Source of the DNA: Rhynchosporium graminicola
Taxonomy: Eukaryota; Ascomycota; Leotiomycetes; Helotiales; Ploettnerulaceae
Length of the DNA stretch: 64,000 bases
Direction: 5' to 3'
Assembly: GCA_900074885.1 (NCBI GenBank)
Contig: FJUW01000020.1
Span: 674,844 to 738,843, forward strand
The notes under the pieces were generated by a model that saw only the letters and a list, made by a program, of their open reading frames with translations, had not been told where the DNA came from and searched no databases. Of the stretch, positions 15,554 through 59,720 are shown piece by piece. A program made the position numbers and the translations under genes. The number at the start of each line of letters is the position of its first letter. Position 1 is the stretch's first letter.

Positions 15554-17524
15554 ATGTCTCTTTCTGCAACTTCCAATGTCTTGCTTCAAGGCTATACACC
15601 TTCAATCCTTCTGGGAATTGCAGCAGCCGTACTGGTCTGTTGGCAAAGACTGTCCGTTCAAGTGTGACCCGCAAGAGCCGTCGCTCCTGAAACCGACCGT
15701 CCTTTATATTGGTCACATCATTGGTGTGTATCCTTTTGCCGCACTGAGAAATTAAAGTCTTAGAATCCCAGATTGACGCTGTTGTACCGGGTTTGAGGCA
15801 TTGAATGAAGTGGATACCGAGACGTTCGCTAGGATTACTCAGATATATTGGGAAGTATTTTGAAGAGCGGAAGTTAGTATCGATATGATCGGGCCTCGTA
15901 CAGATCTCTGAATTCCTACCGCGCCAAACGCCTTTCCAGATCGCTACTTTCCCTTTGATCAATGGCAAAATTTATGTCATTAACTCGCCCGCTCTAGTCC
16001 AAATTGCCTATCGGAATAAGAATCTGTCTTTCGATCCGTTCATCATCGTATTTTCGAAGAACATGCTCTCATTGTCCGAGGTTCGTACCTCTTCAAACTC
16101 TATTAATTGCCTACTCCCTTTTCTAGGACTGGGAGAGCCTAAGAATACTACTTACAGCTATCTAGAGGGTCATGATAGCATTGGAAAACGTAGACTTCAT
16201 TCCAGGATTGGTCAGGGAGATTCACGTTCGATGGCAGGAGAACATGTGCACAAAATGAACACCTTTGCACTCAAAGATGTCGCTCTGACTTTCAACGAAA
16301 TGAAAGATGCCTTTGAACCAGATAGTCTGTACCTGTGGATTCGGGACGTATTGACTATGGCTACGTGCAATTCTCTTCTGGGGTCCCATAATCCGATGAA
16401 GAGCGACAAGAGTTTAGTGGAAGCTCTGTGGTAAGTTTAACTAAAAGCGGTTCTGGTATTGCTTTTGATGAAATACTAGGGACTTTGACGCTGGTGTCTT
16501 TCTCTTAGTTCTGAATATCATGCCGTCGATCGTCGCACCTAAGACTTATAAAGCACGAGAGACCCTTCAGGCTGCTCTACGGAGATACTATGGTACGAAT
16601 CATGATCTTGAACCAGATGTCGCAGAGTTGATCAAGGTCAGTCAATCACTTCTGCACCATGTCTTTGCATCGGAAAACCTTCTCCTCTGTCAACTTTCTT
16701 GGACTTCAAACATTACAAAAGATTTATGGCTACTAATGGATCAATCATAGGTTCGTGCAGCCTATTATAAAAAGTACGATCTGGGCACAGACGATACTGG
16801 GAACTTCGAACTTGCGTTACTGAACGTCTCAACTGCTAACGCTATCCCAACTGTCCTTTGGCTTGTCGCTTTCATCGTGTCTGAACCAGCGCCCATTGCT
16901 AGCATCAGAGAAGAATTACAAGCAGTAATCATAATCTCAGAACCCAAGAACGGAAAGCGTCAAGCAGAAGTGGACATCACGAAGCTTGATGATGACTGAC
17001 CTCTCCTAGTCTCGTCTTATCGCGAAGTTATCCGTCTTATCAATTCGCAGCTTGGAACACGACGTGTAATGGCAGACACCATAATCTCAGATGAAAAATC
17101 CACATATCTCCTTCGTAAAGGTTGGGATATCCAAATACCAGCTGGCGTGCCTCATCGGTCGACTGAAGTTTGGGGTCCCAACGCTGCTTCCTTCGACGCG
17201 AGACGTTTCATGAAGCTGGATACGAAGGGCGCTATGAGCGAGAAGGCGAAGGAAGAGAAGCAGGCTTACATTCCCTTAGGTGGTGGGAAAAATCTTTGTC
17301 CGGGCCGAAACTTTGCCTTTGCGGAGATGTTAGGCTTTATCGCCACGCTGATAGAGGGATTTGATGTGAAGGCAAAGGATGGCGGTTTGATTACAGTACC
17401 GTACGTTCCAAGGACTCCGCATGCAGTGACAGTATCGAAGCCTGTTGGGAAGGGTCTTGAGATGGGTGCCAAGATTACACGAAGAGCTGGCTGGGAAGAT
17501 GTCGTTTGGCAATATATCACTTGA
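15554..17524 (+). pseudogene. Cytochrome P450 pseudogene (CYP7/CYP8-like fungal group)
   Basis: Remnant of a microsomal haem monooxygenase. Seen in order: an N-terminal membrane anchor from ATG 15554 (PSILLGIAAAVLVCW); the motif LLKPTVLYIGHIIG in another frame; NGKIYVINSPALVQ; a helix-I-like NVSTANAIPTVLWLV; the ExxR helix SYREVIRL; and the haem loop IPLGGGKNLCPGRNFAFAE with its cysteine. Probable old introns: 15724-15832, 16431-16479 (clean) and 16637-16750 (clean). Lesions: a frameshift near 15660-15667 that ends the anchor frame at TGA; TGA at 15886-15888 in the frame leading to NGKIY; and TGA at 16997-16999, where the next residues continue the ExxR region. The rest of the C-terminal half is open to TGA 17522-17524. 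Two independent stops plus a frameshift make a sequencing error unlikely. The substrate is unknown. Confidence 0.82.
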
Positions 17525-18465
17525 TTTGTTCTTGGTAAGCGACATTCTCGATTTTGCTTACGGCTACGTCGCGTCAGGTCATGAACATATATTCTCACGC
17601 TATATATATACTGAAGCATGTAACATAAGTGCGTGCAACAACGGCACTGATTGAGTATGTCCTTCCAGTAAATTGCGGTATTTGAGCATATCACGATACC
17701 AAGACCATTTGAAGCCGCAAATGAGTCGCAAAAGCTATTACGGAATCTAGTAACTAACACCAACTATAGAGATGTCTCATATACACAGCTCGGCTGATGC
17801 CAGTCCATCTTCCACACTAGAAGCTCTGAAGGTATTCAAGTGTAGCTTGGCACGACCAGCAATTAAAAGTGGGGTTCGGCAAAAATGAAAAGTAAACAAA
17901 GGTCCAACATAAGCGCGCTCACCATATGGCGTCTGTTCTGGGTTTCCAGAATGATTGAATAGATCTTTCTAGAATAATGAATTCATGTAGGTGCAGAATT
18001 TCACCTTTGAGACCGCAAGCTCTTGCATCAATACAGTACGAAGCGTTCACTCGATGATAGCTCCTTTTGCCAGGGTTCTGAAGATATATAATAATCCGTC
18101 TCGTATTATACTCACTAACAGCTACGTAGCTTGCGCGGCGGTAATACTGAAGGTGAAAGGCGCGCGTGAAGTAGATTTGTCGCATCTGCCTTGTTGCAGA
18201 ATTAATAGCATAGCAAAGCTTCGCTTCGAGTCGTCTCCTTCCCTACAAATACTCTCTCCTCCACCACCTGACACCATCTTTCGACTTCAACATTTCCGCA
18301 TCACAATCCAAACAACAAGAACCTCCACCACCAACAACACTTCAAGCTCATACTTTCTTCTACGGAAGCTGCAACCTGTTCGACCTCCTCGCATCACAAT
18401 CTCCAAAACTCCACCACAACCTCACCTTACAACAAACATCTACTACCTCAATCTCCACCTCCATC
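17525..18465. promoter_or_regulatory. Intergenic; C/A-rich leader of the repeat-peptide gene at its end
   Basis: No coding exon recognised. The last ~230 bp (about 18236-18465) switch to a C-rich, A-rich, G-poor leader with CAACAA and CTCCACC runs, typical of the 5' untranslated region of strongly expressed fungal genes, directly before the ATG at 18466. Confidence 0.45.
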
Positions 18466-19155
18466 ATGTTTTCCGTCAAGGCAAACCTCATCAACCTCCT
18501 CCCCACCGTCCTCACACTCATCGTCTCGGTCACCAGCGCTCCTACCGGTACCCCGTATTGCACCTCGCCACAAACCGGCAAGACCAAGGATTGTGACTTC
18601 TTATCCGTTGGCAAGACTCCCGTCCCTTGGGCTCGTTCCGTTGAGAATGTCCCCGTTCCCTGGGCCCGCTCCATCATTGAGGCTCGCGCCGAGGCTGTTG
18701 AGTTGAACACCGGCAAGACTCCTGTCCCTTGGGCTCGTTCCGTTGAGAATGTTCCTGGTCCCTGGGCTCGATCCGTCATCAAAGCTCGCGCCGAGGCTGT
18801 CGACTTGAGCACCGACAAGGTTCTTGTCCCTTGGGCCCGCTCCATCAAGAATGCTATCGGCGCTGCCTTGAACAAGGTTCCCGTTCCATGGGCTCGAGAT
18901 GTTGAGAATACCGCCGTTCCTTGGGCCCGCTCTGATACTGTCCCCTGGGCTCGCTCTATCGACACTACCGTCGAGGCTTCAAAGAACATCCTCGTCCCAT
19001 GGGCTCGCTCTGATACCGTCCCTCGGGCCCGCCGCCGCTCTGTCGAAAATATCGCAGTCCCCTGGGCTCGCTCCATCGACGCTGCTGCTTCCGTCTCGGC
19101 ATCTAAGAACATCCCCGTTCCATGGGCCCGATCCGACACCGTTCCATGGGCTTAA
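18466..19155 (+). CDS. Secreted repeat-peptide precursor with thirteen PWAR-type units
   Basis: No family recognised. Single exon, 229 aa. Residues 1-25 form a signal peptide (hydrophobic LLPTVLTLIVSV, then SVTSA|PTGTP). After a short Cys-containing spacer (Cys32, Cys43) come thirteen units with core [PALGT]-[VG]-P-W-A-R-[SD], with Pro at residues 54, 65, 88, 99, 122, 141, 152, 160, 178, 186, 199, 219 and 227. Unit 10 is degenerate (VPRARRRS) and unit 13 ends TVPWA-stop, lacking the Arg. Linkers alternate between short SVEN or SDT and longer ARAEAV(E/D)L and ASKN types. The W-A-R core is kept while linkers vary, as expected for a multi-copy peptide precursor (compare Kex2-processed repeat proteins, alpha-pheromone-like or RiPP precursors). 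However, classical KR sites are missing; only single Arg, one RRR and Lys-x occur. A 259-codon antisense ORF over the gene is a by-product of the repeats. Confidence 0.8.
   Translation: MFSVKANLINLLPTVLTLIVSVTSAPTGTPYCTSPQTGKTKDCDFLSVGKTPVPWARSVENVPVPWARSIIEARAEAVELNTGKTPVPWARSVENVPGPWARSVIKARAEAVDLSTDKVLVPWARSIKNAIGAALNKVPVPWARDVENTAVPWARSDTVPWARSIDTTVEASKNILVPWARSDTVPRARRRSVENIAVPWARSIDAAASVSASKNIPVPWARSDTVPWA
18611..18813 (+). repeat. Tandem ~102-bp duplication within the repeat-peptide gene
   Basis: Two adjacent copies of about 102 bp, each starting near GGCAAGACTCC and encoding KTPVPWARSVENV-PxPWARS plus an xARAEAVxL linker. They are near-identical in the first half and diverged in the linker. 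This suggests the array grew by recent in-frame segment duplication. Confidence 0.75.
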
Positions 19156-20059
19156 TTTCCTTCCTACCGCAATTCACACGTCAGTCTTAGGATCTATCCT
19201 GTCAGATACTGAATAAATGACTGAATGAACGATACGCACGCGTGGTGGATATCTCAAAACTGGCGTTCGTAGACGGCTTGGCATGGCATGGACATGAAAT
19301 GATTTGATCTGTTCTCCTTTAGAGAGAGTCAGATAAGGTTCGCGGAGCTCTGCAAAGCAATGGGTTTTACCAAACATGAGTAAGGCATAGTCTTTTAAAC
19401 CTCTTTTCTTTTTCTTTCTCCGTACTTTTGTGTGTGTGTTGTGATGTGATGTCTAAATCTGTAATGGTGATATGATTGTTTGAGTGTTCAACGACGGACG
19501 ATATTGGAAGAGGGAAATGCTCAATGCATACAGAGGTAGAGGACCGAGTAGATGCCATGATCTAGGACTGGCAAGTGTTTTCACACAAGAGGGATTTTTG
19601 GATGGTGATCTTATGTAACGCTGACAGGGCGTCAATAGTATCGTTTGAGTTGAGTGACGTAGGAGGATAATATCATGTCTGCAGTACGTATCTTGTTCAC
19701 ACGACAGGCAGTGTGACCCATGAACAGCTGTGACAGAAAGCTACCTCTGTTCCCCAAAGCACGCAAGGGAGGATGTCGAAATGTCGACGCGAACATGACA
19801 TACCAACAAGTCACTTGCAATTAAAGAATTAACAGAATACACATGACCGGAGTACCTATTGAACTATTGAAAAATGTATTTGTACAATGGAGACGCGCTC
19901 GTCTCCGTCGTGTTCCAATAATCCCACACTTTCGTGCTCATTCATCCTGTCGCCAGGAGCTTCCCCAACCAGCACTGACTGTTTTATCGCTCCACCAGAT
20001 AAAATGAAAAGGCTAACTATTGCTCATGCAAATTGGAAAAAGAAAGAAAAACCCGAGCA
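19156..20059. other. Intergenic, 3' regions of convergent genes
   Basis: About 0.9 kb between the repeat-peptide gene (+) and the kinase-fold gene (-). TG and GATGTG runs near 19430-19450; no supported gene. Confidence 0.5.
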
Positions 20060-22432
20060 TTAAACTTGCACTGGTGCCAAGCTGTCAATAACATGTCTGT
20101 CGTTATGCGTTTCTGTAGTCGTAGTCATCGTCAAATCGTCATCTAAATTCGCCGAAGGGATCTCTTGGGGGAACTTTGCGTAAGCAGTCCCGATGCCAAT
20201 TAGGTCTGGGTATGCTGTCGGTGGTGTTGGGATTGCCGCTACTGTGCTTCGCGACTCTGTAATTTCTGTTATGGGCTGCTTTTCCATATCATATGTGTAA
20301 TTCAGGGTTGTGTCCGCATCTTTGGAAGTTAAGAGCGAGGGTTCGATGGTGTCATTTGTGGGTGTTTTGTGGGTGTCTGTGTTTAGATAATCGGACCCTA
20401 CAGTGGAATGTAGTAATGATAGATCTCCAAGGTGTACGTCTCCATTTCGGAGTGATGTAGAATGTAGATTGGGAGTCGGAAAGTCTGCCACTCCATTCGG
20501 AGTTGAAGTATTGTCATTGCTGTCATAGTCTGAAGTGGGCCTGGAATCTGGAAGAGGGATGGTCGATGGAATTCTATCCCAACGGAATTGTGCTGGTGGA
20601 GATCTTCCTCGACTTGGGAACTCAGGCTCCTCTGATGTATCCGTTATGGCATAACCATACACATCAATGGGCTTGCCAAATTCGCCTGCGTGAGCATAAC
20701 TCGGATGTAAAGTCAGCGGATCTGTGAAATGGTGGCCATTTGTAAGGGCTCTTTGGCCATTATAGCAAGCATCTACCACGATTGGAATGGATCGCCCATT
20801 GTCGTGATGGCTTTCCCCGACATCTGGGAAAAAGGTGAGCAATGTCGACGCCTGTGACCGTGTTCTCGGATCACCGCTCAGGCAGCGGCAACACAATTTC
20901 CGGTAATACTCCGGAATATCATGAGAAAAAGTCGAAAGGTCGAAAGGACGATGCTTCTCCGGCTCATCTTGCTGGGTTGCCAAAGCAAACAGCACCATAC
21001 CCAGCTGATACAGATCCGATTTGACTCCGATATACATAGAGATTCGCTGACTACTTTCAATGAGTGCCGCCACTTCGGGTGGTTCCCAACCAACGGGGCA
21101 TCCTCTCCGATTGATATCGATGATCTTTGCATTGTCATTCCCATCAATGACTATATTCGAGAGTGTAAAGTCACCCTGGACGAAGCCAGCCTCGTGAATT
21201 TCAGAAAGACCTTGCACAATCTGCTTGGCCCATCGCTCACGACGTCTCCACGGTATTCTTCCTTCTCCATCATAAATCACGTCGATCAAAGCTCCTTGCT
21301 CTGCGAAGTCGATGAGTAGGCCCTTCACCTTCTCGCCTTGGTTATCAAGGACGACTCCGCCGAACCGAATCACGCTCTTGGAACCATACAGCTGGTGAAG
21401 AGCATTGATTTCGTAAAGGAACTCATCCACGGTATCAGGTCCTGGGATTTCTTTTTTTATGAACACCTGACCATCGAGCCTCACCTTGTAGACAAACCCT
21501 GATAGATGAGAGTCGAATACAAGCGCATCTTCACGCACTCTCCTGCAATTGAGATGACTGATGGCTTTGATAGGGGGATACGAGATGATCTCCGAAAGAT
21601 CCTCAACCACATGCACGTGCAATCTCTCTTTCTCCGTCTGGAGTTTGAGATTTGTGACTGTGTCGTAGAACTGGATGTCTGGCAAGGAATCGCGAATGGC
21701 CTCGTAGATACGGGCACTTTTGTCCCTCTGAAAACGCGTCCGCTGCAATTCTTCTTCCAAAGACCCTTCAGGCGCATCTCTGTAGTCCAGAGAAATTGTG
21801 ACTCGCCTCCAATGAGTTGGCGTCTCTGCATAAGTGACAAAGAACTTCTCCCTTTTGGACTTATCCCTGAAATGCATACTCAGGTTCAGAATCCACCGCT
21901 TCTCCAGCTCTTCCAGTATCATTTCGTCAAATGCCTCTGTCGATATCGATAGTGCATCCACGCAGGATGGATCTTTGGAGACCTCCACATATTCTTCCTT
22001 CACATCCAACTCGTTCACCTGCGGTATGTTTGAGGTCTCTATTACAGCATCGGTCTTGATTTCGTTGTCTGGCAGCTCCGGGGCACTCTGTCTCGGGAGC
22101 GACGCAACTGTTGCGGAGGAATTTCGGGCTAGAAGGTTTCGCCGTCGATCTACTGATACTGTTCGTCGTTCGTCTGCGTTCGGTTTTGAGGGTTCAAGTC
22201 TGTCTCGCAGCTCTGATTGCTGTCTTTTGAAGGTCCCGGGTCGAGGCAAGCCCGGCACAACCTTTCGAGATAGCCTCCGCGCAATACCAGGTTTTTGGAC
22301 ATCTTCTGGGGGAGGGGTCGATGGCGGTGCCGTCGCACTTGTGTCCTCCTTGCCGAAGAGCTTCCTCCATGACCAAGAGGTTCGATGATCTGTAGATGGG
22401 GTTCTCGTATGCGGCTTCTCCGTTTGTGTCAT
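20060..22432 (-). CDS. Protein kinase-like protein with atypical catalytic loop
   Basis: Single exon, 790 aa. Residues 1-150 are basic and disordered (SWSWRKLFGKED, RRLSRKVVPG). Residues about 300-535 show a kinase fold: the VAIK-type lysine in VFIKKEI (about 326-327), Glu in FLYEINALHQL, a catalytic loop GFVQGDFTLSNIVI with Asp421 and Asn426, and Asp439 in IIDINRRG where DFG is expected. They are followed by GWEPPEV (APE-like) and KSDLYQLGMVLF (helix F). The His-Arg of HRD is replaced by Val-Gln-Gly and DFG by DIN, so activity is uncertain although the catalytic Asp, Asn and metal Asp are present. The last 250 residues are Ser/Thr/Pro-rich. It resembles fungal HET- or NLR-associated kinase-like proteins of unknown role. 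Start ATG 22432 opens the frame. Confidence 0.8.
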   Translation of the reverse strand: MTQTEKPHTRTPSTDHRTSWSWRKLFGKEDTSATAPPSTPPPEDVQKPGIARRLSRKVVPGLPRPGTFKRQQSELRDRLEPSKPNADERRTVSVDRRRNLLARNSSATVASLPRQSAPELPDNEIKTDAVIETSNIPQVNELDVKEEYVEVSKDPSCVDALSISTEAFDEMILEELEKRWILNLSMHFRDKSKREKFFVTYAETPTHWRRVTISLDYRDAPEGSLEEELQRTRFQRDKSARIYEAIRDSLPDIQFYDTVTNLKLQTEKERLHVHVVEDLSEIISYPPIKAISHLNCRRVREDALVFDSHLSGFVYKVRLDGQVFIKKEIPGPDTVDEFLYEINALHQLYGSKSVIRFGGVVLDNQGEKVKGLLIDFAEQGALIDVIYDGEGRIPWRRRERWAKQIVQGLSEIHEAGFVQGDFTLSNIVIDGNDNAKIIDINRRGCPVGWEPPEVAALIESSQRISMYIGVKSDLYQLGMVLFALATQQDEPEKHRPFDLSTFSHDIPEYYRKLCCRCLSGDPRTRSQASTLLTFFPDVGESHHDNGRSIPIVVDACYNGQRALTNGHHFTDPLTLHPSYAHAGEFGKPIDVYGYAITDTSEEPEFPSRGRSPPAQFRWDRIPSTIPLPDSRPTSDYDSNDNTSTPNGVADFPTPNLHSTSLRNGDVHLGDLSLLHSTVGSDYLNTDTHKTPTNDTIEPSLLTSKDADTTLNYTYDMEKQPITEITESRSTVAAIPTPPTAYPDLIGIGTAYAKFPQEIPSANLDDDLTMTTTTETHNDRHVIDSLAPVQV

Positions 22433-25400
22433 TGCGCTGGCAGGGAGACCCTAGGTGACCTTGTGGATCGTCAGCTTCAGTATCTGATGGCAAGCATTGA
22501 TAGCTTTTGGATTGCGGGGTGAAGTTACTTTGAGACTGCTCTTGCCACCAGGAATTGCTTGTTGCAGATATAGATAGGTAGTGAAAGATATGGATGATCA
22601 CAAAGTTGTGGTACGAATAAGGCTCATGCAGCTACCCTTCTCACGATATACTCCGTACAGTCGAGAGCAATGGCACTTTCATGCTTTTGTATGGGCATAC
22701 CATTGCACTGCAATTGTTAATCTGGAAAAGATGTGTATATTTCTGAACCAGGTAAGGCGGACATCTCCCGGGACCAGGCCGGGTATATGAACGTCTCGAA
22801 GCTATTTGGGCGCAGAGAATTCGAGGGATTGACATTGAGGTGGTCGGTCAAGGAGCCACTAACCGATTTGGCCCATGAACAACGCAACACAGCGCAACGC
22901 AAGACGCAGGCTGGGCCAAGGCATTTTCCCGTTGGCAGCCTTATTATTTGCCCGTGGGGTTGGAGACGGTCAGTGTGACACAGAAAGGCAATGCAGTGAA
23001 GTGCAGTGCGCTGCGAGGCATTTGAATGGATGGATAGCAGGACGCAGCGGGGGGGGGAGGGGGGGGCCTGAGAGTACAGTCCAGTCCAGTCTCTCCAGTC
23101 CAATCCAATCCAGTCCAGTCAAAGACGATGTGACAGCGAATACAGAAGAGGAGCAGGACAGCAGAAGAAGGTTGGCTCAAGGTGGGATGGCACGAATCAA
23201 TGCAGCTAATTATTTAATGAAGGTGCATCTCTATACGACTGACAGACTCTACGACTTTACGACCAAGGTATTAACCCGTTACAGTATAAGTAGGTTAGGC
23301 CTGGATCAGACTGAAATGGAATGGAAAGGCCTGCTGGCGCCCAAAGCTACAGTACAAGTATAGGTAACCAAGTATAAGTAAGTACCTAGGTACCTCTCTA
23401 TTATAGAACATCCATCCATTAGCGGTGGATCGCCCCGGCTGCGGGAGGAACCGACAGCCTGAACGGAACGAGACGAACGACGTTGAAGACGGGGGGACTG
23501 CTACACTAAGGTACAATATCTACTATATTACACTTTTACGACGAAGGCCACTTTATCATTTGTATAAGCACGAATCATCCATTGGTACAATAAGAATCTG
23601 AAAAAGACCTGAAGAGGCAATCGATCCCCATCAACACATTATATTAGCGATCCCGCGTGACGGGAAAATGGAATTATCATATTTCCTTCTTATTTGACTT
23701 TTCCGTCCGTCTCACTCTCACCGTCCGTCTCACTTCTCACCCCCCTTCCCTCTCAGCCTGCCCCATTTCAACGTGAGTGAGTCTATTGGGAAGATTGTTG
23801 ATGGAGCCACCTTCGCCGAGATCTTTGGAGGCTGCTGGTTGGTATTAAACAAGCTTTGTACTTACTTATATAACAGCAAAACCCGAGGACCTTCGGCGAA
23901 TTAGACTTTTCTCAAAGTCAGTCCTGCAAGAAGATGCTACTTGGAGAGTAAGTGAAAGGAAGTACATCCATACCACTGCCTGCTGGAAGAATAGAACCTC
24001 AGGTTTGTGACGTCGATGAACAATTCAGTAGTTCGTGTGAATTTGCAGCGGGAACTGCTCCATACTCGATCACTACTACTTATTTAAAGCCTTTACAAAA
24101 TCATTTGGATCTTGGTTATTGTACTGTCATTCTTACTCACTAACAGTATTCCAATAATCAACACATTCCCCGCTAAACACGGGACCTCTAATAGCCAACG
24201 CGGACTATTAATTGATGACATCTCATTGATCGCTCCCGCCATATCTATTTGGCTCGCTTGTAAACGTAGGTAGATGGTAAAACTTTCGAGACAACCTGGA
24301 AACAGTAAGATGTGATGAATCCTATTTCTGAAAAGCGAAGACTCCATCCATCAATCAACACATCTCGTCGGGCAGCAATCAGTTTAACAACTGCTACATC
24401 ATCCTTACCTTGGGTACCCAAGCGGAATGAGGCTGGTGACCTGAACTCCAATTTGCGTGTAACACGTATCGCTTTGCCCCTGCCGACCGCCCAACGGTGT
24501 GTTCCCATCGGCTTATTTATGCCTTGGTTCCGCAGCCTAGAGAGGCAGACAAAAGACTCTCGACCCGCGAACTAGACTTGTGGTTGGGCCCTTTTGTGGT
24601 TCGTCTACATGTCGCGTTGCTTGCTGCATTGCATATGCGTCATGCAATGCAGAGCTACATCGGGTTGGATGTGAAGTTGGTTGGGGCTTATAAGTACTGG
24701 ATGATGTTAGGGGTGGCTAGAGGGTATTCCCGCATGGCCACTTCCCCCTCCAGCCTCCCGCGTCAAAACCTGCATACTGTAAGAAAGATGACGCCCCAGC
24801 CTTGAAATCATCAGTGGATATCGTCGTTGCAAGCAAGCAAGCAAGGGCCCGAGGAGCTACTGTGAGATCAACAAATGTACCAAGCTATGGTTGGCATAGA
24901 ATAACTACATAGGTACTTATGACCTGCAATAGTCTGTCCATACTACGCGGCCTTCCTCCGAGTCGGGCTGTGTTGCAAGAAAGTAGGCTGCGTACATTTG
25001 GTCGCGAGATGTATCTTGAGCGTGATATCGCGGCCGCCGCAGGAGCCAGGAGTTGGCAAAAAATGGTAGGAAGGAGGTGGGAGTTTGAGAAGATACAGTA
25101 ACTGAGGAGAAGAGGCAATGCTTGCGTACAAATTTCGAGCGACAATGGGAGTTCGTGTCATGTGTCTTGGTTTAGTTGTTCCGTACTGCTGAGATGAATG
25201 TAGCTATTCATTGCTCGGAGTTGTATTACCTACCTACGTAAATGACCGCATATATGATATACTCTCAGGTAGGCCAGTGACTGGCTCAGCCTTCACTTCC
25301 AAGCAAACGAACGTCGGACGTTCGGCGACATAGTGATACTACAGGCAGCGTAACACAGGCTAGCAGATATATTCATGACCTCGATTGAATGGAAGAGAGG

Positions 25401-58368: not shown

Positions 58369-59720
58369 TCAGCTAGCAATACCCAACTCACCCACCCTCC
58401 GCATAGCCCACTCGGCCGCACCAGTCGCATCGTTCACATACGTCAGATGATCCCTTGAGACCTTACTCCCACCCCTACAAATATCATCTCCATCATGACA
58501 GAACGTTTTGGTCCTCTTCTCATCCACCCCTGGAATAGCCGTCCCGTTCTTTGGATCACCGAAGAGAACGACGGAGGAAATTTTCGAGGTGATGCTGGGT
58601 GGAAGTAAAGGGAGCGCAAGGTAGACCAACTGGGCGCCTTGGGAGTAGCCGGATAGGAGGAGGGGGGTCGATGGACAGTTTGTTAAGGAGGATTTAACGA
58701 GGCCGGCCCTGTGGGAGAGTAAGTAGAATTGGAGGTATGAGTGGCAGATGATGAGATTGGAATAAGGACTGGGACTGAAAGAGCAGTTTGGAGGAGAGAG
58801 GGTAGGGCGGAGTGGAAGAGCCAGAGGAAGTAACATACATCTTGATGGCGCCGTTCATGGATCCTCCAGCGAAGAAGCCAGCCGGCTGCGCTTCGTAGTC
58901 TACGCCCTGGATAGCGAGCTGGTTCGTGCCGTTGATGTACTCTCCTAGAGCGGCGAAGAAAGGTGGACCTGTGAGGATCCCGACATTGCCTACACGTTGA
59001 GATTATGATATCAGCCCATTATCCTGTGATATCAAAATAGCCACTTGAGATTCCGAGGTTTGAACCCCCAACACAACGTTGTCATGTCATTGTAACCATG
59101 CTTTTTCCTCCGAAAGTCCCAGTCAAGAATGTCATGTCTTCATCACAAAGACGGTCCCAATCCAAGATCGAATATAACGAAATCCCAATGAAGAACATCA
59201 CAAATTCAACAACAAACATACTAACAAAACCAACCAAAGAAAACAACTCACCAGGTTCCCCAGTTCCCCTCGCAAACACCACACTCATCTTCGGACACAC
59301 CACTTTCTTCCCCGTACCACTCATAACATTCGACCCATTCATATTCACACCCATACCCAAAGCCGCCAACCCATTCTGCAATATCGCCATTCCGTGCTGA
59401 CTTATAAACGCAACCAGTTCAGCAGGAAGATTCGAATTCGCAGTTGAATTCGATGCGGGCTTGAGCATATTTTCGATGGTATCGAGAATGGAGCCGGTGA
59501 CATTGGAGGCGAGATTTAATGCGGCGGCTGGATCGGGCGCGAGGGCGGCGGGGACGGGGAGAGGGGCAGGTAGAGGGGCAGGTAGAGGGACAGGAAGAGG
59601 GACAGGGAGAGGTATAGGTATGGGGATGGCAATGGGGACGGAGGCTTGTGTGTTTTCTGATAAGAGGGTGAGGATTGTGAAGACGAGGAGACTTCTCTGG
59701 CGAAGGCGTGGAGAGGGCAT
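58369..59720 (-). CDS. Secreted cutinase-family serine esterase with Pro-rich N-terminal repeat
   Basis: Secreted esterase for cutin or other polyesters. Exons 59720-59252, 58989-58839 and 58708-58369; 319 aa, phases consistent. Signal peptide MPSPRLRQRSLLVFTILTLLSENTQA, then a low-complexity P-[ILVA] segment at about residues 28-62 (PIPIPLPVPLPVPLPAPLPAP). The catalytic domain has VVFARGTGEPG (oxyanion) at about 147-157, GYSQG with Ser229, CHDGDDIC with the catalytic Asp near 282 and a probable Cys277-Cys284 bridge, and His294 in DHLTYVND. All triad residues are present. Normal cutinases are about 200-230 aa; the extra length is the Pro-rich linker and an Asn/Ala segment. Intron 1 (58990-59251) is long. 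It converges tail-to-tail with the Atos gene. Confidence 0.92.

Follow-up and report, generated by a model that had tools for sequence, protein, structure and literature searches.

The open reading frame (ORF) at 18466..19155 (+) of the DNA analyzed here (the window, a stretch of 64,000 nucleotides that corresponds to C28:674844-738843 of a 55.3-Mb genome in 121 contigs) is best explained as the gene for a secreted, multi-copy precursor of linear peptides that would be cut at single Arg residues, leaving ...VPWA ends, an interpretation that we hold with moderate confidence. If the units are indeed released at single Arg residues, fungi may hold further secreted signalling peptides, which would be excluded by the dibasic rule of two surveys of Kex2-processed repeat proteins (KEPs), as that rule is described in the accessible text of the surveys (PMC6339444, PMC7329392). 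We suggest, far more tentatively, that the gene could belong to a class of precursors, separate from the mating pheromone, which are released at single A-R sites, yield ...PWA-ended products and have been overlooked by surveys restricted to dibasic sites. The gene offers a concrete, testable case, with one copy, defined peptide masses and, in the same genome, a precursor of a known kind as a control.

Gene organization and the repeated core

The ORF is uninterrupted and encodes 229 aa; its position and length, as well as the hydrophobic N-terminus that the first-pass annotation ascribed to its product, agree with the ORF list, the translation and the hydropathy profile. The N-terminal leader (18466..18540 (+)) resembles a signal peptide: as read from hydropathy and translation, a hydrophobic stretch, with a hydropathy peak of 2.50 in the 9-residue windows that begin at residues 14 and 15, is followed by small residues, and the cut point, placed by eye, would fall after residue 24 or 25 (between VTS and AP or between TSA and PT). 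The leader is followed by a pro-region, YCTSPQTGKTKDC (18541..18612 (+)), which contains, judging from translation and composition, the only two Cys residues beyond the leader. An exact string match places the TATA-like TACAAATA, a putative promoter element, at 18244..18251 (+), 215 bases 5' of the ATG, and another string match, AATAAA at 19212..19217 (+), 57 bases 3' of the stop codon, is a possible polyadenylation signal. The codon index of the gene against the window ORFs is 0.797, with 0.795-0.837 for ten other ORFs, and in its codon usage the precursor gene is not set apart from the other ORFs of the window; its GC3 is 0.63 versus 0.42-0.51 in the ten other window ORFs compared.

The region beyond the pro-region had been described as thirteen copies of VPWAR joined by variable linkers. 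There are indeed 13 core positions, all on the plus strand, only 10 of which are exact VPWAR (core 1, 18622..18636; core 2, 18655..18669; core 3, 18724..18738; core 5, 18826..18840; core 6, 18883..18897; core 7, 18916..18930; core 8, 18940..18954; core 9, 18994..19008; core 11, 19057..19071; core 12, 19117..19131). The remaining three are GPWAR at residue 98 (core 4, 18757..18771), VPRAR at residue 185, followed by RR (core 10, 19018..19032), and, at residue 226, a terminal VPWA that is followed by the stop codon TAA and forms a unit without Arg (core 13, 19141..19155). The tetrapeptide VPWA occurs 11 times, whereas shuffling the 205 residues beyond the leader 20,000 times never produced more than two occurrences. 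The variability of the linkers is evident from the distances between successive core starts, namely, 11, 23, 11, 23, 19, 11, 8, 18, 8, 13, 20 and 8 residues (mean spacing 14.4 residues, 173/12). Long linkers hold two possibly decayed cores, IIEARA and VIKARA. Cores 1-5 are carried by a tandem duplication of 102 bases in 2.3 copies (18610..18843 (+)).

Conservation of the core

The amino acids of the core are held at the protein level. In the alignment of the 13 units on the core, VPWAR showed pN 0.03 at pS 0.57, that is, pN/pS of 0.05, against 0.85 in columns -6 to -1 and 0.95 in columns 6 to 10, in agreement with the original observation that the core is kept while the linkers change; the cores were picked by their amino acids, which alone lowers pN, and the core ratio rises to 0.22 when IIEARA and VIKARA are added. 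The Ser column that follows the core is less constrained, with an intermediate pN/pS of 0.60. Within the VPWARS block, 28 of the 34 minority letters are on third codon positions. Given that the silent sites of the core vary nearly as much as those of the flanks (pS of 0.64 and 0.65), the best account of these values is that the peptide is constrained, not that it was copied recently. As a positive control, the 8 units of this genome's alpha-pheromone precursor yielded 0.00 within the unit versus 0.32 and 0.53 in the flanks. The sole comparison not selected by the core is that of two 102-base copies, which are too alike to decide: 2 silent and 1 changed among the 10 core codons, and 5 silent and 4 changed among the other 24.

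A minus-strand open frame of 250 aa (18360-19112 (-)) spans the repeats and contains ERAQGT repeats of its own; the frame probably mirrors the codons of the plus strand. This overlapping frame and the 102-base duplication could also be taken to mean that there is no plus-strand gene at all and that the repeats are a by-product of DNA duplication or of the minus-strand ORF. We find this exceedingly improbable because pN/pS is 0.28 in the minus-strand block (11 units recognised) versus 0.12 in the plus-strand VPWARS block (13 units), and because the leader, the TATA-like string and AATAAA fit the plus strand, the strand on which the strings were sought.

Predicted processing of the precursor

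The absence of KR between the units, noted in the first-pass annotation, is borne out: the VPRAR unit contains the sole dibasic run of the protein, RRR at residues 189-191. Beyond the leader, 14 of the 17 Arg residues are part of an A-R dipeptide; R187, R190 and R191 all belong to the VPRARRR unit. The final unit stops at PWA, which fits a role of Arg as a cutting signal that is later removed; with the mean spacing of 14.4 residues, the chance that an ORF ends exactly ahead of the final Arg is roughly 1 in 14.

From these features, we infer a processing scheme that extends from secretion, cleavage and the cleaving enzyme, through trimming and the exact product, to expression and function. The precursor would enter the secretory pathway and would be cleaved behind the lone Arg that closes each (V)PWAR core, whereupon a Kex1-type carboxypeptidase would take off the Arg, giving linear peptides that end in ...VPWA. 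A Lys is located three residues before the core V in four cores (K50, K84, K118, K137) and four residues before it in two (K173, K214); in these six units, a second cut 3-4 residues ahead of the core is conceivable and would produce peptides of 6-7 residues. Dipeptide trimming at X-Pro/X-Ala might occur as well: Pro or Ala directly precedes VP in 8 of the 13 cores (binomial P 0.0007 relative to the linker composition, for units that are not independent). The pieces obtained by cutting at Arg differ in length and start mostly with S-V, S-I or S-D, which are not evident starting points for Ste13 trimming. The final product would probably serve the fungus as a bioactive peptide or as a signal outside the cell.

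Under a variant that overlaps this best explanation, trypsin-like cutting after both Lys and Arg would release Arg-retaining 7-11-mers, with TPVPWAR, VPVPWAR, NIPVPWAR, SVENVPVPWAR and others as the predicted products. The Lys residues ahead of six of the cores are compatible with such cutting, as are two neighbouring trypsin-family matches, located close together on C66 and probably representing one gene. Nevertheless, 7 of the 13 cores have no Lys at either position, and the last copy has no Arg, hence a uniform product could not include it; we consider the variant, along with the products that it predicts, to be somewhat unlikely.

The repeats and the secreted-type leader would in themselves suffice for a protein that is not cut at all, that is, a secreted repeat protein, wall-bound or exposed on the surface, in which the PWAR motifs bind something in place. 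Cleavage of the precursor is, after all, a prediction, and A-R does not count among the classical Kex2 sites. However, the core spacing is irregular (8-23 residues), the protein matches no Pfam family up to E 10, the structure predicted for it contains no confident fold (mean pLDDT 35.6, to be given little weight as the input was a single sequence), and the last copy lacks the Arg alone. An uncut protein is, accordingly, an unlikely alternative to release of the units at single Arg residues.

As for the enzyme that might perform such release, the genome contains a P_proprotein match on contig C31 (positions 1-58 of 86, with one internal stop), as would be expected for a Kex2 gene. Single-Arg cleavage of heterologously expressed KEPs in fungi has been reported and ascribed "possibly" to Kex2 (PMC9769878), and killer toxins are described as undergoing Kex2-type cleavage behind a lone Arg, with an LKAR site deduced by comparison in a homologue of K74 (PMC13211469). 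Thus, as far as the accessible text of these papers goes, the missing KR does not exclude Kex2. The accessible part of PMC2515848 contains nothing on A-R cleavage sites, and a literature search on monobasic precursors returned no match.

Copy number and genomic neighbourhood

The precursor gene was found in one place in the 55.3-Mb genome by sequence search (E up to 10). The VPWARS pattern, which took only CGN codons for Arg and TCN codons for Ser, produced 9 matches in the genome, all within the precursor gene (1 and 1 in the controls), and a three-core pattern produced 3 matches, again all within this gene (0 and 0 in the controls). The core pattern matched 23 times in prokaryote contigs and 4 times in viral contigs, with none of the matches confirmed; as these collections are not fungal, the counts say little. 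There were 0 matches to the precursor among PDB sequences at E up to 1, and among the matches listed by literature searches on VPWAR, the core variants, PWAR pheromone precursors and fungal secreted VPWA, none was relevant by title.

Of the 61 stop-to-stop ORFs in the window that reach 130 aa, 30 were scanned against Pfam, along with the precursor. The nearest recognised neighbour upstream is a cytochrome P450 sequence (15889-17524 (+)), which ends about 0.9 kb before the precursor and of which two pieces were scanned, with a Pfam match only for the one at ~17000-17524; downstream, the nearest is a protein kinase (20060-22450 (-)). Elsewhere in the window, there are a HET-domain ORF (PF06985, 25925-27811 (+)), an ORF for a BSP family peptidase (PF04450, 33421-34416 (-)) and a cutinase-domain ORF (PF01083, profile positions 66-172 of 173, 58369-58854 (-)).

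None of the 30 window ORFs scanned against Pfam matched UstYa. Genome-wide, UstYa (DUF3328) gave 31 exon-level matches (36 of 36 candidates scored), none of them on C28, which, together with a core devoid of Tyr, makes it very improbable that the gene encodes the precursor of a cyclised, ustiloxin-type ribosomal peptide, even though a secreted-type repeat precursor with a P450 piece upstream (17000-17524) would suit such a pathway.

The alpha-pheromone gene of the same genome

The view that the gene is not a standard KR-processed pheromone precursor gains support from the identification of a separate alpha-pheromone gene on C60, at ~332.6-333.2 kb (L024 1147-1749 (+)). Its product, of 200 aa, contains eight RCGHPGQPCG units, the first of which is followed by KFKR, the second by a lone R (PCGRDAIP), which is in line with release at single Arg residues, and the other six by KR. 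The same decapeptide has been reported in 7 of 14 species of Ploettnerulaceae, Drepanopezizaceae and Mollisiaceae (PMC10569646), which makes the genome probably that of a Leotiomycete. The C-x2-P-G-Q-x-C pattern had 13 matches in the genome, eight of them in a single C60 ORF, versus 2 in the controls; a W-C-x3-G-[QE]-x-C pattern had 7 scattered genome matches versus 9 in the controls, and the Pleosporales PYG-type pheromone pattern had 0 in the genome and 0 in the controls. A lone match coding for CGHPGQPC at C103:216939-216962, outside any ORF of at least 80 aa, may be a pheromone unit that has strayed or decayed. In the alpha-pheromone precursor, the leader includes AIPWAAAEA and so shares PWA with the VPWAR core, probably by chance.

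Comparison with known peptide precursors

Alpha-pheromone precursors, as exemplified by the C60 gene, follow a common plan with the present protein, comprising a leader, many short conserved copies and more variable linkers. They are defined by a conserved unit of 9-14 aa followed by KR, RR or KK, and in Leotiomycetes the vast majority of the pheromone units are described as containing a GQ or PG turn dipeptide (PMC10569646). Such a unit followed by a dibasic site is absent from the present protein, as is GQ; the sole PG sits at the border of core 4 (NVPGPW). X-Pro/X-Ala precedes many pheromone units; in the present protein, Pro or Ala stands before VP in 8 of the 13 cores, but the pieces cut at Arg mostly do not start with such a dipeptide. 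This partial likeness, along with the shared plan, could be construed as pointing to a second, highly diverged alpha-type mating pheromone. This possibility appears quite improbable, considering that C60 already encodes a precursor of the established type, with eight RCGHPGQPCG units, and that the present core has neither Cys nor GQ and bears a lone Arg in place of KR.

The KEPs are similar to the present protein in possessing a leader (in the present protein, one that resembles a signal peptide), at least three repeats and probable release at basic residues, but their repeats lie between dibasic sites, whereas the present protein has its one dibasic run at residues 189-191. In one of the KEP surveys, proteins are cut at KR or RR, or else at KK, and must give four or more fragments, of which three or more have to be similar for a pattern to be kept (PMC6339444); the other accepts repeats of 8 or more residues between KR, KK, RK or RR, provided that there are three or more of them (PMC7329392). 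Judged from these descriptions, the present protein is outside both definitions, and both surveys, by their rules as described, would miss it.

Precursors of dikaritin/ustiloxin-type RiPPs are alike in being secreted-type repeat precursors; they differ in that the present protein has no KR and no core Tyr and is encoded on a contig, C28, without a UstYa match. Yeast killer preprotoxins share cleavage at a single Arg, which we propose for the present protein, but are described as large-domain protein toxins rather than as short peptides made in many copies (PMC13211469). By the features tested, the present protein is neither a KEP nor an alpha-pheromone precursor and, by its context, it appears not to be of the ustiloxin type; it would work like a multi-copy peptide precursor.
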